A stretch of DNA of 64,000 nucleotides from Bacillus sp. FJAT-44742 (GTDB taxonomy: Bacteria > Bacillota > Bacilli > Bacillales > Marinococcaceae): the NCBI RefSeq assembly GCF_002797315.1, contig NZ_KZ454936.1, positions 2,799,645-2,863,644 of the forward strand, in the 5' to 3' direction. Shown here piece by piece: positions 35,366 through 41,317 of this stretch. The position numbers and the translations under genes were made by a program. Below the pieces are notes generated by a model. It was not told the origin of the DNA and searched no databases. It saw nothing but the letters and a program-made list of their open reading frames with translations. The first letter of the stretch is position 1; every line of letters begins with the position of its first letter.

Positions 35366-35445
35366 GATTCATTTTTGAATTATTTTCTGAATTAACTCTA
35401 TTTTCTGTAATTCACTTTTGTATTATGAACCAAAAATGAATTACA
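35366..35445. promoter_or_regulatory. Putative upstream activating sequences for the sigma-54 activator
   Basis: At 35406-35445 two 15-base arms (TGTAATTCAYTTTTG) face each other around a 10-base spacer with one mismatch. A third half-site (GATTCATTTTTG) is at 35366-35377, within a smaller palindrome ATTCATTTTTGAAT. They lie about 80-155 bases upstream of the predicted start site, the normal range for enhancer-binding activators. The larger repeat also overlaps the activator stop codon. Confidence 0.6.
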
Positions 35446-37129
35446 GGGTTTCCGTATCAATAGAAAGTCCATATTTTTTTAGTTTTCTTACGACTGTTGC
35501 CTGGCTGGTTTCCAGGTGTTCAGCAATTTCATAAGTTGTAGACCATTTTTTTACCGCTGTAGATAATACCTTTTTTTCTGCTTCTTCCACGCTTTTCTTT
35601 AAAGGAAGTAATGTACTCTCGGGGACATATTCATATCCTTCTTTATATTCGTCTGGAAGGTCGTCAAAGGATAAACTCTTTGCGGGACAGGTTATCATCA
35701 TACGTTCAACCAGATTAGATAACTCTCTGACGTTCCCAGGCCAGTGATACCTTAGAAAAAATTCTGTTAATGTACGGTCTGCTGTTTTATTCATTTCATA
35801 TTTTTTGTTGTATTTATTAACTAAGGACTGCACCAAAGGCAAAATATCTTCTTTTCGCTCCCTGAGTGGCGGCACAAAAACCGGCACTACGTGCAGACGG
35901 TAATATAGATCTTCTCGGAACGTCCCTTCCTTTACCATCTTTTTTAAATCCTTATTTGTGGCTGCTATTACTCTAACATCTACTTTTTTTGTTTTTGTTC
36001 CACCGATTCGCTGAATCTCCTTTTCTTGAAGGACCCTGAGAAACTTCACCTGCAGTGGTTCGGGCATTTCTCCTACTTCATCCATAAATAAAAAACCTCT
36101 ATCTGCCATTTCAAACAACCCGGGTTTTCCTGAGCGGCTGGCTCCTGAAAAGGCCCCGGCCTCATATCCAAATAATTCAGATTCCAGCAAGTCTTTAGGA
36201 AGAGCACCGCAATTAATTTTAATAAAGTTTCCACTGTCGTAGCGATTGCTCACGCGATACAAGTGCCTGGCTAATACATCTTTCCCTACACCCGTTTCTC
36301 CTAAAATGAGCACCGTCGTATCTACATGAGCTAATCTTTCTGCGGTGTTAAAGAGGTCCAGCATCTTTTCGCTTTTAATTACTACCTCAGGATCTTCCTT
36401 TGTATAGGCTTTAAGCCTTTCAAGCTGCTGTTCGTATTTTTTATTTAATTGCTGTACTTCATTTAGTTGTTCATGCAGCTCATTTAATTCTGACAAATCT
36501 CGAATGTTGGTTACAATTTTCTCAATTTCCCCGTTTTCATTAAAAATAGGGCTGCCCGTCATTACCGTTTTTTTCTGATTAAAATTCTTTTGTACGACAT
36601 TCACCGTTTCTTTTGCTTTCAATACTTTTGTGGTGACGGATTCTTTTAATATCCCTCTTTTCATAAGATCATGGACGTTTTTTCCTATGTAGTAGTGTTT
36701 GGGGATGCCTGATATTCTTTCTATGGCTGAATTTGTTTTTAATGTATTTCCTTCATGATCTGTGATGTATATACCATCATAGGAGCTTTCAATGATGGCA
36801 TCGAGCTCACGGTTTGACTTATTAAGTTCCTTAATCTTCTCCTTCATTCCAGCGTATTCTTCCCCTGGCACTGCTATATAGTTAAAAATGCCATTAGTAG
36901 AAGGATAATTTGTTTTTCGCATAAAAAATAGAAAACATTGATCTTGCAGTTTCCCTAAAAATGATTCTTGATCAGTGCGAAAATCAGAAAAGACAGAATC
37001 AGCGTTGTCACCCGCTGTGACTTTCCCCTGGAAAAGTTCAAATGCAGCTTCGTTTAAGGACTGTATGGTAGTTTCATGATCAGTAGTGAATGAAGCAAAC
37101 GGGAAATGGAATATACTCATGGGAGCCAT
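35441..37129 (-). CDS. PAS-domain sigma-54-dependent transcriptional activator
   Basis: A 562-residue enhancer-binding protein of the RocR/BkdR kind. Residues 1-100 form an unassigned sensor region, and a PAS domain covers about 105-215 (AIIESSYDGIYITDHEGNTL). A coiled linker leads to the AAA+ domain (about 250-480) with Walker A GETGVGKD at 277-284, the sigma-54 contact loop GAFSGA at 325-330 and Walker B FLFMDE at 346-351. A Fis-like helix-turn-helix ends the protein (STTYEIAEHLETSQATVVRK). The loop has Ser for the usual Thr of GAFTGA. It should sense an acid or acyl-CoA and activate the promoter next door. Its start overlaps the upstream reductase stop as TGATG. Confidence 0.92.
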   Translation of the reverse strand: MAPMSIFHFPFASFTTDHETTIQSLNEAAFELFQGKVTAGDNADSVFSDFRTDQESFLGKLQDQCFLFFMRKTNYPSTNGIFNYIAVPGEEYAGMKEKIKELNKSNRELDAIIESSYDGIYITDHEGNTLKTNSAIERISGIPKHYYIGKNVHDLMKRGILKESVTTKVLKAKETVNVVQKNFNQKKTVMTGSPIFNENGEIEKIVTNIRDLSELNELHEQLNEVQQLNKKYEQQLERLKAYTKEDPEVVIKSEKMLDLFNTAERLAHVDTTVLILGETGVGKDVLARHLYRVSNRYDSGNFIKINCGALPKDLLESELFGYEAGAFSGASRSGKPGLFEMADRGFLFMDEVGEMPEPLQVKFLRVLQEKEIQRIGGTKTKKVDVRVIAATNKDLKKMVKEGTFREDLYYRLHVVPVFVPPLRERKEDILPLVQSLVNKYNKKYEMNKTADRTLTEFFLRYHWPGNVRELSNLVERMMITCPAKSLSFDDLPDEYKEGYEYVPESTLLPLKKSVEEAEKKVLSTAVKKWSTTYEIAEHLETSQATVVRKLKKYGLSIDTETL

Positions 37130-38040
37130 CAGCCTTTCCTTACATCTATAAACGTCAATATAGAGTAAAGCGTTTCCAAAACAGGCGTATCCACTTCTAA
37201 CCTTCTCGCCTTTTTAACGAAATACCCGCATAATGCTTCAACCTCCATGGGCTTGCCCTTTTCTCTATCCTGAAGCATAGAGGTTTTGTGATGTCGTACT
37301 AAGGCGGCATCAGCGAATACTTGATCTATTGCTTTTTTAGTCACTTTAATATTTGCTTTCTTTGCTACTTCTACGATTTCCTTTAATACCAGCTCTGCTG
37401 TTTTATTTAATTCAGGAGAATCTAATATCTCGCCTACAGCAGCTCCAGTTACAGCAGACAGAGGATTAAAAGTGACATTCCAAAGAGACTTTCGCCATTT
37501 TCTTTCAATGATGCGGTCGCTTGACCTTGTATTGATCCCGCTGATTTCAAACAACTGAACGACCTCATCCGCTTTTTGACAGTTATCATCTGATAGACTT
37601 CCAATAAAAAATAAATGATTCCCTTCTTGTTTCACTGCGCCTGGAGAATCTACCTGGGCAGAAATATGTGCAGCACCAGATAACACCTGCTTCTCTCCAT
37701 AAAGATCAGCTAATACTTCTTCGTTGCTCACTCCATTTTGAAAGGTAAGGATTGATGCCTCCTTTTTGACAAAAGGCATCATTTCCCTGGCTGTCTTTAA
37801 CGTATCCGGTGATTTAACCGTAAACAAAATAAGGTCTGCCCCTTTTATGACATCCATAGAATCAGTAAACGTTGCTTTTATGGTTTTTTCGTGGTTGTTT
37901 GTTTTTAAAATCAGACCATTTTCCTTCATATGCTTAAGATGTTCTCCTCTGGCAATCAATGAAACATTCATTCTTTCATTGCTCAACATGCCGCCAAGAT
38001 AACTTCCAATAGCTCCTGCCCCAACTACTGCAATATTCAT
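37129..38040 (-). CDS. Ketopantoate reductase family protein (PanE/ApbA-like)
   Basis: The ATG at 38040, seven bases after AAGGAGG, gives 303 residues starting MNIAVVGAGAIGSYLGGML with the NADP-binding GAGAIG. ITFQNGVSNEEVLADLYG and the C-terminal KPMEVEALCGYFVKKARRLE match the ApbA/PanE domains, with Lys and Glu at the expected catalytic places. The family reduces 2-ketopantoate for pantothenate, but many paralogues act on other 2-oxo or hydroxy acids. Being translationally coupled to the sigma-54 activator, it may serve CoA supply for the acyl-CoA pathway or handle a 2-oxo acid. Confidence 0.8.
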   Translation of the reverse strand: MNIAVVGAGAIGSYLGGMLSNERMNVSLIARGEHLKHMKENGLILKTNNHEKTIKATFTDSMDVIKGADLILFTVKSPDTLKTAREMMPFVKKEASILTFQNGVSNEEVLADLYGEKQVLSGAAHISAQVDSPGAVKQEGNHLFFIGSLSDDNCQKADEVVQLFEISGINTRSSDRIIERKWRKSLWNVTFNPLSAVTGAAVGEILDSPELNKTAELVLKEIVEVAKKANIKVTKKAIDQVFADAALVRHHKTSMLQDREKGKPMEVEALCGYFVKKARRLEVDTPVLETLYSILTFIDVRKG

Positions 38041-38273
38041 AGCATCCTCCTTACGACTAAAAATGTCATTTACATTTCTTCTATATGGGAGAAACCATTT
38101 CCTTTTATCTATCTTTGTAAAATCTTCGTCTGGCCCTTCTCTGCTTTGAACCCAAAGGCTCAAGTAGACAATCCATCCCAGCCTTTCTCTCGCATCCTCG
38201 GTGAGATGAGACAACGCTGGTATGGCACCTGCAGATTCTGCCATAAAACATTTCCCTTTATCCGTTACAGATC

Positions 38274-38325: not shown

Positions 38326-39261
38326 TTACTTTAAGAATTGCCCTCGCTGGCGAAGCAGCTCTCTGTGAAGGTGAACATTTTTCTCAAAAGCTGCTCTGCC
38401 ATGCAGCCAGAATAAATTATTCAGCATAACCAGATTCCCTGTAGGAAGGTTTAACTCAATGACATTTTCATCTTCCTCCATAGAAGAAGAAAGATCACGT
38501 AAATACTTTGCCTGTTGAATAGATTCAGGATAAGCAAATTGGTCGATAAAGCAAATGCAAGGGTTGTTATTTTTCAGGAAAAAGGTTTTACGTTTTACTT
38601 CTTCTTGTACATTTTTACTTGCAGGAGCTTTGTAAGTAAATTCGTAAGAAGCTAAAGGATCTTTAGTAAAACGCTCAAGCTCCTTCCAATCATCCAGGTG
38701 CAGAAGCCTTGATTCTCCTCCAACCGCATGTTCTTCAGCCATTTTCATCATTAGCAGCCAGTCAGTTGGTTCATCTACAAATGTCCCGTCAGTGTGTAAG
38801 GTAAACCGTCTATAAGCCTGCCTTAAATAAGAATCACTGTTATCTGTATCCTTCACGGTAAACCTTGCATAATACTTTCCTGACATGGCATCGAAGTTGG
38901 GCTCTCCTATTAAATGACTTAAAGCAGTGGAGAATAGGATATATTCAGCTACGTCATTCGTTTGTTCTTTAACTCCTATAGTAAATCCCCCTGATGCCCT
39001 GTCATGGAGAATACTGTTGATCGTTTGGGAAAAAGAGGGTCCTGCAACTTCTTCAAGCTTTGCCGCTGCGATAAATCGGTTGTAAGGCACATATTCCAGT
39101 CTTTCTGTGCTCATATCCTTTAGCTCGGAAAAGAATTGTCTTACCACAGCATCACTAATTTCAATATGATACAGTCGGTTGCTTTGCGGATGCTTACTTA
39201 CTCGAAACGTGTTCTCTTCCTTTACAAAATCTCTTTTTACATCCTGTTCAAGCATACTCAT
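38326..39261 (-). CDS. glaH: Glutarate 2-hydroxylase (CsiD/GlaH), Fe(II)/2-oxoglutarate-dependent
   Basis: A 311-residue protein of the CsiD family. The iron-binding triad is His156-x-Asp158 (FTLHTDGTF) and His287 (WLHGRAAF), and C-terminal arginines (HRELLRQR) should hold the 2-oxoglutarate. It hydroxylates glutarate to L-2-hydroxyglutarate while turning 2-oxoglutarate into succinate, in lysine and glutarate breakdown. The next gene upstream, lhgO, encodes the enzyme for the following step, so the assignment is well supported. AGGAGG precedes the ATG. The 260-base leader holds a sigma-A promoter, strong stems and an intrinsic terminator before the ribosome site. Confidence 0.9.
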   Translation of the reverse strand: MSMLEQDVKRDFVKEENTFRVSKHPQSNRLYHIEISDAVVRQFFSELKDMSTERLEYVPYNRFIAAAKLEEVAGPSFSQTINSILHDRASGGFTIGVKEQTNDVAEYILFSTALSHLIGEPNFDAMSGKYYARFTVKDTDNSDSYLRQAYRRFTLHTDGTFVDEPTDWLLMMKMAEEHAVGGESRLLHLDDWKELERFTKDPLASYEFTYKAPASKNVQEEVKRKTFFLKNNNPCICFIDQFAYPESIQQAKYLRDLSSSMEEDENVIELNLPTGNLVMLNNLFWLHGRAAFEKNVHLHRELLRQRGQFLK

Positions 39262-39284
39262 TGTTCATTCCTCCTCTAAAATTA

Positions 39285-39333
39285 AACATAAAAAGCCAGC
39301 TATACTGTGAGGTTGCACAGTACAACTGGCTTT
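39285..39333 (-). terminator. Leader terminator before glaH
   Basis: AAAGCCAG and CTGGCTTT form the outer stem, TACTGTG and CACAGTA the inner one, followed by TTTTTA. It lies between the glaH promoter and its ribosome site, so it must be controlled for glaH to be expressed. Confidence 0.85.
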
Positions 39334-39463
39334 AGATTACTGGTTATGCTCTACGGAAATAGAGTCATAGTAACTAAACAGCTGAAGAGTTATATAGGTG
39401 AATTCGCGTATTCCTTCATTCACGATTCTTCAGGTTCTACCCTGAGAAGGTGAATGGGTAACT
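39334..39463 (-). promoter_or_regulatory. Structured leader RNA of glaH, possible riboswitch or attenuator
   Basis: On the transcript, CATTCAC/GTGAATG encloses an inner CAGG/CCTG stem. Further on, TTTAGTTAC can pair with GTAATCTAAA, enclosing a CTCTA/TAGAG hairpin. The 3' side of that second stem (CTAAA) overlaps the first bases of the terminator arm, so the two folds compete. That is the layout of a transcriptional riboswitch. It does not match the lysine, glycine, glutamine, T-box or SAM consensus features I know. Confidence 0.55.
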
Positions 39464-39469
39464 GATTAC

Positions 39470-39498
39470 AGTGTAAAACAGCTTAAAACTAATGTCAA
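39470..39498 (-). promoter_or_regulatory. Sigma-A promoter of glaH
   Basis: TTGACA (39493-39498), a 17-base spacer and TACACT (39470-39475) on the minus strand. Transcription should start near 39463, over 200 bases before the glaH ATG. Confidence 0.8.
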
Positions 39499-39525
39499 CA
39501 TATATTCAAAATATTCTATCATTTA

Positions 39526-40740
39526 CTATGATTGACTGGTGAGAGCATTTTCTTTCTTCATGCCTATCAACCTTGTCACTTCTTCACCGATCTGGATAGA
39601 AGCTGTGGCTGCTGGTGAAGGAGCGTTACAAATGTGAAAGCTGTTTTTCCCAGTCACAATATGAAAGTCATCGACAAGGCTTCCATCTGCCTTTAAAGCT
39701 TGTGCTCTTACTCCCGCCGGTGCAGGATCCAAGTCATCTCCGGTTATTTCAGGAATCAGCTTTTGGAGGCTTTCTACAAACTTAGCTTTGCTGAATGAGC
39801 GAATCATTTCTTCTGATCCTTCTTTCACATAATTTCTTGCCAGTTTCCAAAAGCCGCTGTACCCCATGACTTCCATGAAATCTTTAAGTAAAAAATCAGT
39901 CTTTCTGTATCCTTCTCGTTTAAAGCTAAGAACTGCATTGGGTCCCGCTTCTACTTCTCCATCTATCATTCTCGTAAAGTGGACTCCTAGAAATGGGAAG
40001 TCTGGGTTAGGCACAGGATAGACAAGATTTTTAACAAGTCCCCTTTTTTCCTCTTTAAGAGTATAATACTCTCCTCGAAACGGGATCACTTTCATGTCTG
40101 TATGATAGCCCGTTTTTCTTGCTATTCTATCACTGTGAAGACCGGCACAATTAATTAACGTTTTGGCTCGATAGGTGCTGTGCTGTGTCTCTATGGTTAC
40201 CTGGGACTCCTCCTCTGTAATATTTTGAACCTCAGTATTAAGAAGCATTGTCCCTCCGCCCTCTTCAATCAGCGAAGCAAAAGTCTCACTGACCTGCTTG
40301 AAATTAACAATTCCTGCTGAAGGAACATGAATCGCTGCAAGGCCGTTCACGTTAGGTTCCTTTTCCTTCAGCTCTTCCCTGCTTATTTTTCTAATGTTTA
40401 AGCCGTTCTCCAACCCACGTTTGTAGAGATTATCTAAACGTGGCAGCTCCTGGTCATTAGTGGCAACAATAACCTTTCCGCAGACATCATGGTCAATGTT
40501 ATGCTCTTGGCAAAACTCTACCATCGATTGATTGCCCGCCTTTGCGAACCTTGCTTTGTAGCTTCCTGGTTTATAATAAATTCCAGAGTGAATAACGCCA
40601 CTGTTATGACCAGTTTGGTGAGAGGCCCAGCTTTCTTCTTTTTCAATCATTAAAATGGAGGCCCCAGGGAACCTTTTTGTTAGGGAGTGCCCTACAGAAA
40701 GGCCAACAATTCCACCACCTATAATCGCATAATCGTACAT
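39526..40740 (-). CDS. lhgO: L-2-hydroxyglutarate oxidase
   Basis: A 404-residue FAD-dependent enzyme of the DAO/LhgO family. FAD motif GGGIVGLS begins at residue 8, SHQTGHNSGVIHSGIYYKPG near 45-64 is the LhgO hallmark, and VIPFRGEYYTLK lies near 225. It oxidises L-2-hydroxyglutarate to 2-oxoglutarate, passing electrons to the quinone pool. Together with GlaH it converts glutarate to a TCA-cycle intermediate. It has its own leader with a terminator upstream, and a second regulated leader separates it from glaH. Confidence 0.92.
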   Translation of the reverse strand: MYDYAIIGGGIVGLSVGHSLTKRFPGASILMIEKEESWASHQTGHNSGVIHSGIYYKPGSYKARFAKAGNQSMVEFCQEHNIDHDVCGKVIVATNDQELPRLDNLYKRGLENGLNIRKISREELKEKEPNVNGLAAIHVPSAGIVNFKQVSETFASLIEEGGGTMLLNTEVQNITEEESQVTIETQHSTYRAKTLINCAGLHSDRIARKTGYHTDMKVIPFRGEYYTLKEEKRGLVKNLVYPVPNPDFPFLGVHFTRMIDGEVEAGPNAVLSFKREGYRKTDFLLKDFMEVMGYSGFWKLARNYVKEGSEEMIRSFSKAKFVESLQKLIPEITGDDLDPAPAGVRAQALKADGSLVDDFHIVTGKNSFHICNAPSPAATASIQIGEEVTRLIGMKKENALTSQS

Positions 40741-40990: not shown

Positions 40991-41317
40991 TTACTTATTT
41001 CTTAGAAAGTGTGTATGAAACTGAATATGTAGATCTTTAATGGCTGCTAAAATTGCGTTCTTTGCTTTTCCATGATAGTGGGTTTCCACCGCTCTTAGTA
41101 TAATTTCTACACTGTCCTTGAGACTGTATCCTCTTAACAAATGATGAATATATTCCCTTCCATGTTCTGTCGCCAGAGTACAGGAGGCTTGAAGTATCAC
41201 TCCATACTTTCTGTCTACTTCTGCTGTAACTGTCAACGTATTAAACACACTTTGCGCCGCCATGCCTTCTGGAAGTCTTGCATGGCCGGCAATAAATGCA
41301 ATGTTGCCATTTTCCAT
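40991..41317 (-). CDS. DUF3870 domain-containing protein
   Basis: A 108-residue soluble protein recognised as DUF3870 by its GHARLPEGMAAQSVFNTLTV start, the VILQASCTLATEHGREYIHH core and the RAVETHYHGKAKNAILAAI end. Function is unknown. It is oriented like lhgO and separated from it by the lhgO promoter and leader, and it follows the Lrp gene by about 100 bases. That context suggests a role in amino-acid or carboxylate degradation. AAGGAG precedes the ATG. Confidence 0.8.
   Translation of the reverse strand: MENGNIAFIAGHARLPEGMAAQSVFNTLTVTAEVDRKYGVILQASCTLATEHGREYIHHLLRGYSLKDSVEIILRAVETHYHGKAKNAILAAIKDLHIQFHTHFLRNK

Follow-up and report, generated by a model that had tools for sequence, protein, structure and literature searches.

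In the catabolism of 5-aminovalerate this compound is converted through glutarate semialdehyde into glutarate, which is then broken down either by GlaH and LhgO via L-2-hydroxyglutarate, or by SUGCT and GcdH via glutaryl-CoA (PMC6667623 and general knowledge). In Pseudomonas putida, glutarate is the effector in the control of csiD-lhgO and gcdH-gcoT, while 5-aminovalerate and lysine are not, and CsiR responds also to L-2-hydroxyglutarate (PMC6667623). The 64,000-nucleotide stretch of Bacillus sp. FJAT-44742 analyzed here (the window) carries, in front of the glutarate 2-hydroxylase gene glaH, a leader RNA that belongs to a family found at genes of the same two pathways. The likeness to the P. 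putida regulators CsiR and GcdR lies in those pathways and, for the RNA as proposed here, in glutarate-responsive control (PMC6667623), but P. putida uses two unrelated DNA-binding proteins whereas in the present case a single RNA element appears to act on both pathways. Support is good for the element itself, for its antitermination anatomy and for its regulon of glutarate catabolism. On balance we favour the view that this leader acts in cis as a transcription-antitermination RNA and represents a new class of ON-type riboswitch, probably glutarate-sensing, with a P2/P3 core and an optional P1 hairpin; direct sensing of glutarate would be the most likely mechanism.

The leader occupies approximately positions 39292 to 39463 of the minus strand. 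The order of its parts is promoter, P1, a linker of about 33 nucleotides, P2/P3, terminator, Shine-Dalgarno sequence and glaH, as listed below; R2 is a covariance model of the P2/P3 antiterminator alone, built from 39 sequences.

39470-39498, minus strand: sigma-A-type promoter, TTGACA (39498-39493) and TACACT (39475-39470) with a spacer of 17 nucleotides (from the sequence)
39417-39456, minus strand: P1 hairpin, outer stem CATTCAC/GTGAATG, internal loop and inner stem CAGG/CCTG (predicted fold, -17.9 kcal/mol)
39323-39384, minus strand: P2/P3 bulged hairpin and antiterminator helix CAGCTG (39384-39379)/CAGTTG (39328-39323) (R2 match of 54 bits, covariation and fold)
39292-39333, minus strand: intrinsic terminator hairpin followed by a T run, its 5′ arm including the 3′ strand of the antiterminator (from the sequence; -26.9 kcal/mol)
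39270-39276, minus strand: Shine-Dalgarno sequence GAGGAGG of glaH (from the sequence)
38326-39261, minus strand: glaH (csiD), glutarate 2-hydroxylase, the regulated gene, ATG at 39261 (PF08943, E 4e-125; NCBIfam glutarate dioxygenase GlaH, above cut-off)

The helix between CAGCTG and CAGTTG takes bases of the terminator 5′ arm, so that the two folds are predicted to be mutually exclusive and, on these predictions, the conserved domain competes with the terminator as part of an expression platform. The predicted energy of the antiterminator is -18.2 kcal/mol, as compared with the values listed for the terminator and P1, and that of the whole leader is -57.5 kcal/mol, or -46.9 kcal/mol if it is forced to antiterminate. 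A transcript ending at 39322, before closure of the terminator, is predicted to hold P1 and the antiterminator. With the terminator favoured by about 10 kcal/mol in the full leader, the predicted default is OFF, and the antiterminator would need stabilization. The leader was more stable than 200 of 200 dinucleotide shuffles (z = -5.6; z = -2.8 when the terminator was omitted). A preliminary description, made from the sequence, had reported a sigma-A promoter, two stem domains and a terminator before the ribosome site, all of which were located, and had proposed mutually exclusive folding, which holds. The second stem that it took as the decisive pairing, TTTAGTTAC with GTAATCTAAA, has however only AAA in common with the terminator; the decisive overlap lies one helix further out, in CAGCTG/CAGTTG, which it overlooked.

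The same plan of promoter, P1, linker, P2/P3 and terminator was recognized by eye in 24 leaders of CsiD-family genes of the order, and relatives carry the same type of promoter at an equal distance from the element. A covariance model of nine of these leaders (R1) recovers most of the remaining ones, the divergent ones weakly. Among 80 named glaH loci, from Bacillus, Halobacillus, Thalassobacillus, Paenibacillus, Brevibacillus, Aneurinibacillus, Peribacillus, Neobacillus and others, the element precedes about 73 of the genes (R1 E ≤ 1 or R2 E ≤ 0.05), about 56 of these leaders passing R1 at E ≤ 0.01, and one more, from Sinobaca, was recognized by eye. R2 detected no element at the glaH loci of Ignatzschineria (gammaproteobacterial), Paenibacillus thalictri and Fictibacillus fluitans, nor at the second glaH copy of P. 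piri. Judged from these sequences, the element fronts most of the glutarate-breakdown gene sets examined in Bacillus-type bacteria. The window genome has a single confident copy according to the covariance models. At locus L047 (1642-1917) extra sequence between the element and glaH resembles a dispersed repeat.

The 5′ leader contains a conserved structured domain whose pairing covaries. The helices were first set by hand and then re-derived through covariance-model alignment; RNAalifold gave no pairs on the raw MAFFT alignment of the 24 leaders, in which the register of P1 and P3 shifts by one base between groups. In a MAFFT alignment of 39 sequences, not fitted to the model, 14 of the 17 pairs have changed at both partners, and pairing holds in 88.9% of the cells, versus 40-41% with the partners slid by one. 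A tree-aware null, re-placing the changes of each column on a FastTree tree, was applied to 106 distinct model-aligned sequences, an alignment that favours the model to which it was fitted: three pairs, each belonging to the structure, exceed the family-wise threshold, and of 1540 column pairs the eight with the highest scores are without exception predicted base pairs. In an independent parse of P1, the 95% shuffle level was surpassed by 47 of 112 leaders, where about 6 would be expected, and positions of its outer stem show several Watson-Crick types, up to all four, across relatives. Conservation and covariation among homologous glaH leaders, which the preliminary description had left as a check on its proposal, are thus both strong. 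Since they are found in related genomes, chance is untenable as an explanation, and that the leader is a real, conserved antitermination RNA seems to us practically beyond doubt.

Searches run without reference to genes bear on the wider regulon, which the preliminary description, though right in regarding the glaH leader as riboswitch-like, did not foresee. R1 matched in addition leaders of a class III CoA-transferase whose nearest solved relative is human SUGCT and whose best NCBIfam match, below the curated cut-off, is succinate-glutarate CoA-transferase. On 299 genomes of the order, R2 at E ≤ 0.01 gave 60 sites, spread over 42 genomes; at E ≤ 0.1 the number of genomes rises to 44. Downstream of these sites lie glaH (30), SUGCT (10), glutaryl-CoA-dehydrogenase-like genes (2), γ-aminobutyrate (GABA)/5-aminovalerate-type transaminase or aldehyde dehydrogenase genes (4), a polyamine-type ATP-binding cassette importer heading a transaminase-dehydrogenase-SUGCT-GcdH-DUF3870 operon (1), amino-acid permeases (3), a dicarboxylate symporter (1), hydantoinase A/B pairs (2), a Rieske oxygenase (1), an amidohydrolase (1) and tiny Cys-rich peptides (4); one match, at L218, is false, being within coding sequence. 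The R2 match at L239 is doubtful, having neither promoter nor terminator. With functions assigned by homology, 47 of the 60 sites precede genes of glutarate/5-aminovalerate type, and 6 further ones precede transporters or lactamase-type genes. In the homologous hydantoinase pair at L103 the closest match of the A subunit, below the cut-off, is caprolactamase. At two further loci the gene behind the element encodes an acetyl-CoA-synthetase-like ligase (L111) or a class III aminotransferase (L082). A class-wide search added sites from other orders, some at 52-62% G+C, in front of glaH and of SUGCT, GcdH and aldehyde-dehydrogenase genes. We hold with high confidence that the element serves glutarate catabolism.

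The Cys-rich peptide genes are very short (MCKKTGCGKCKDCPLANVEKKSK and MCKLASGCKNCGGCKNSGKVIKQQKK, for example) and follow an element with P1 in four genomes: L215 after 633 (plus strand), L209 after 6298 (minus), L208 after 10652 (minus) and L220 near 1909 (plus). The Rieske ring-hydroxylating-type oxygenase follows an element at L048 (1080-1228, minus strand) and adjoins a SUGCT-GcdH-lhgO-DUF3870-glaH cluster; it is possibly another entry to the pathway.

P1 was not seen in the Bacillaceae leaders of hyuAB, the dicarboxylate symporter, the amidohydrolase, the class III aminotransferase and one gabTD, nor in the high-G+C leaders; in these P2/P3 stands close behind the promoter. For that reason P2/P3 with the antiterminator is taken as the core and P1 as optional. 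The P1-less Bacillaceae copies have a common P2 variant, CTAA...TTAG (L103:8673, L207:5631 on the minus strand, L199:4340, L217:526, L082:933 and L208:8411 on the minus strand); the genes that follow them code for lactamase-type hydantoinases, a dicarboxylate symporter, an amidohydrolase or aminotransferases. Going by their sequences, they are possibly a subclass with another ligand.

Glutarate is probably the signal, because it is: (i) common to both downstream branches; (ii) made by the transaminase/dehydrogenase branch; and (iii) the effector in P. putida. The preliminary description had left glutarate, L-2-hydroxyglutarate, 2-oxoglutarate and lysine as candidates, and the regulon points to the first of them over lysine or 2-oxoglutarate. 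That the RNA binds the signal directly we judge rather more plausible than its opposite. The fullest form of the proposal, a new class sensing the dicarboxylate glutarate through a core of about 60 nucleotides within the antiterminator, with an optional P1, and controlling both glutarate routes together with entry and transport across Bacilli, stands in our opinion at about even chances.

In the proposed mechanism, RNA polymerase would make P1 first and then P2/P3, which can extend into the antiterminator helix holding the 5′ arm of the terminator. When the signal is absent, the more stable terminator would win and glaH would be off. The signal, most likely glutarate, would bind the internal-loop domain of P2/P3, helped by P1 where present, locking the antiterminator and allowing transcription of glaH; the ON direction is suggested by the predicted folds.

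Several observations weigh against a glutarate riboswitch. The four sites before Cys-rich peptides and the single ones before the Rieske oxygenase and the amidohydrolase have no obvious role in glutarate metabolism. The assignments as transaminase, CoA-transferase or dehydrogenase either fall below curated cut-offs or do not specify the substrate; profile matches cannot tell GABA from 5-aminovalerate, and the transaminase and dehydrogenase could act on either. Conservation at the unpaired positions of P2/P3 is only moderate. What speaks most strongly against a pure riboswitch is the DUF3870 gene, which accompanies the element and the glutarate genes in almost all genomes, as would fit a protein co-factor. 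In the window this gene and that of the next pathway enzyme lie upstream of the leader:

39526-40740, minus strand: lhgO, L-2-hydroxyglutarate oxidase, upstream gene of the same pathway (NCBIfam PRK11728, above cut-off)
40991-41317, minus strand: DUF3870 gene, possible protein partner or pathway protein (PF12986; co-localization with the RNA element in relatives)

On the other side, 3′ of glaH, are genes for a PAS-sigma54-type activator and a ketopantoate-reductase-like protein (35441-37129 and 37129-38244), and related activators are found near the clusters of several relatives.

The main rival explanation is protein-mediated antitermination, in which a glutarate-responsive protein, most plausibly DUF3870, would bind P1 and P2/P3 and stabilize the antiterminator much as HutP or ANTAR proteins do. 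In most of the 80 glaH loci a DUF3870 gene, in one or the other orientation, lies close to the element, and DUF3870 is present in 44 of 44 R2-positive genomes of the order and 17 of 18 of the class, some genomes (L123 and G135, for instance) having one copy per operon. However, its predicted fold (AlphaFold model, predicted local distance difference test score of 86) is IscU/lipoate-ligase-like with weak matches, and the HutP-like fold that would be expected was not seen among the 50 PDB matches listed, nor was any match strong. Moreover, in G522 a weak-scoring, terminator-backed element precedes a glutaryl-CoA dehydrogenase gene without DUF3870, and beside another DUF3870 subfamily, which neighbours a membrane-protein gene, R1 finds no credible element. 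Hence we regard this explanation as unlikely, though worth keeping in mind; DUF3870 may be an ordinary pathway protein. If it were the sensor instead, an uncharacterized family would gain its first function, as an RNA antiterminator. The second subfamily (VGEAKS..NNPI; L129-L150) mostly adjoins a gene for a multi-pass membrane protein, outside the glutarate context.

A riboswitch for a different pathway metabolite, be it 5-aminovalerate, glutarate semialdehyde, L-2-hydroxyglutarate or a lactam, is improbable. It would suit the sites at which transaminase/dehydrogenase, permease or lactamase-type hydantoinase genes follow, and the P2 variant common to the P1-less copies, a subclass that could sense a different compound. 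Nevertheless, glutarate is the one compound that the GlaH, SUGCT and transaminase/dehydrogenase branches all handle directly, and in P. putida neither 5-aminovalerate nor lysine is an effector (PMC6667623). Attenuation by a leader peptide was rejected as extremely improbable, since the five-codon open reading frame inside P3 of the window leader (ATG ACT CTA TTT CCG TAG) that would suggest it is not conserved, being absent from many relatives, whereas the pairing covaries.

Were glutarate the bound ligand, the known ligands of riboswitches would gain a small, purely dicarboxylic compound, sensed from within the antiterminator itself, and the control of 5-aminovalerate/glutarate catabolism in these Gram-positive bacteria would be explained. 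A compact RNA sensor would also become available for glutarate, a platform chemical and human disease metabolite (PMC6667623).

The window leader has no match in Rfam 15 (4227 families) at gathering or permissive thresholds, and no class reached its gathering score in 21 further loci, which gave far sub-threshold matches and an unrelated Bacillaceae-1 small RNA elsewhere in L204. This agrees with the preliminary statement that the lysine, glycine, glutamine and T-box consensus are missing. Matches to miRNA-like families, and one to caiA that fell far short of the cut-off (E 0.53), were taken as chance. No description of the element was found in the literature on glutarate, csiD or aminovalerate riboswitches or on glutarate antitermination; csiD, glutarate and hydroxyglutarate are missing from the main text of large RNA-motif surveys, whose supplements, not covered here, may hold an earlier unnamed listing.

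Among known systems, the two-hairpin leaders regulated by ANTAR proteins and the hut leader regulated by HutP resemble the element in having two hairpins, the second overlapping the terminator, and in preceding catabolic operons. ANTAR targets have conserved hexaloops, whereas the apical loops of the element vary in length and sequence, and an ANTAR-regulated leader was rejected on this account; HutP sites have regularly conserved UAG triplets, which the element lacks, and HutP was not among the 50 PDB fold matches listed for the linked DUF3870. The transcriptional ON riboswitches with terminator/antiterminator platforms, such as adenine pbuE and glycine, share with it a covarying leader domain, a competing antiterminator and terminator, and catabolic or transport genes of one metabolite; the element matches no Rfam class in sequence or structure, and its ligand is proposed from the regulon. 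In the hydroxymethylpyrimidine pyrophosphate (HMP-PP, thiS) riboswitch a small core sensor coincides with the expression platform, as proposed here. That aptamer is terminator-embedded (PMC6478431), and differs in structure and in genes from the present element, in which the core lies inside the antiterminator and an extra upstream P1 is often present.
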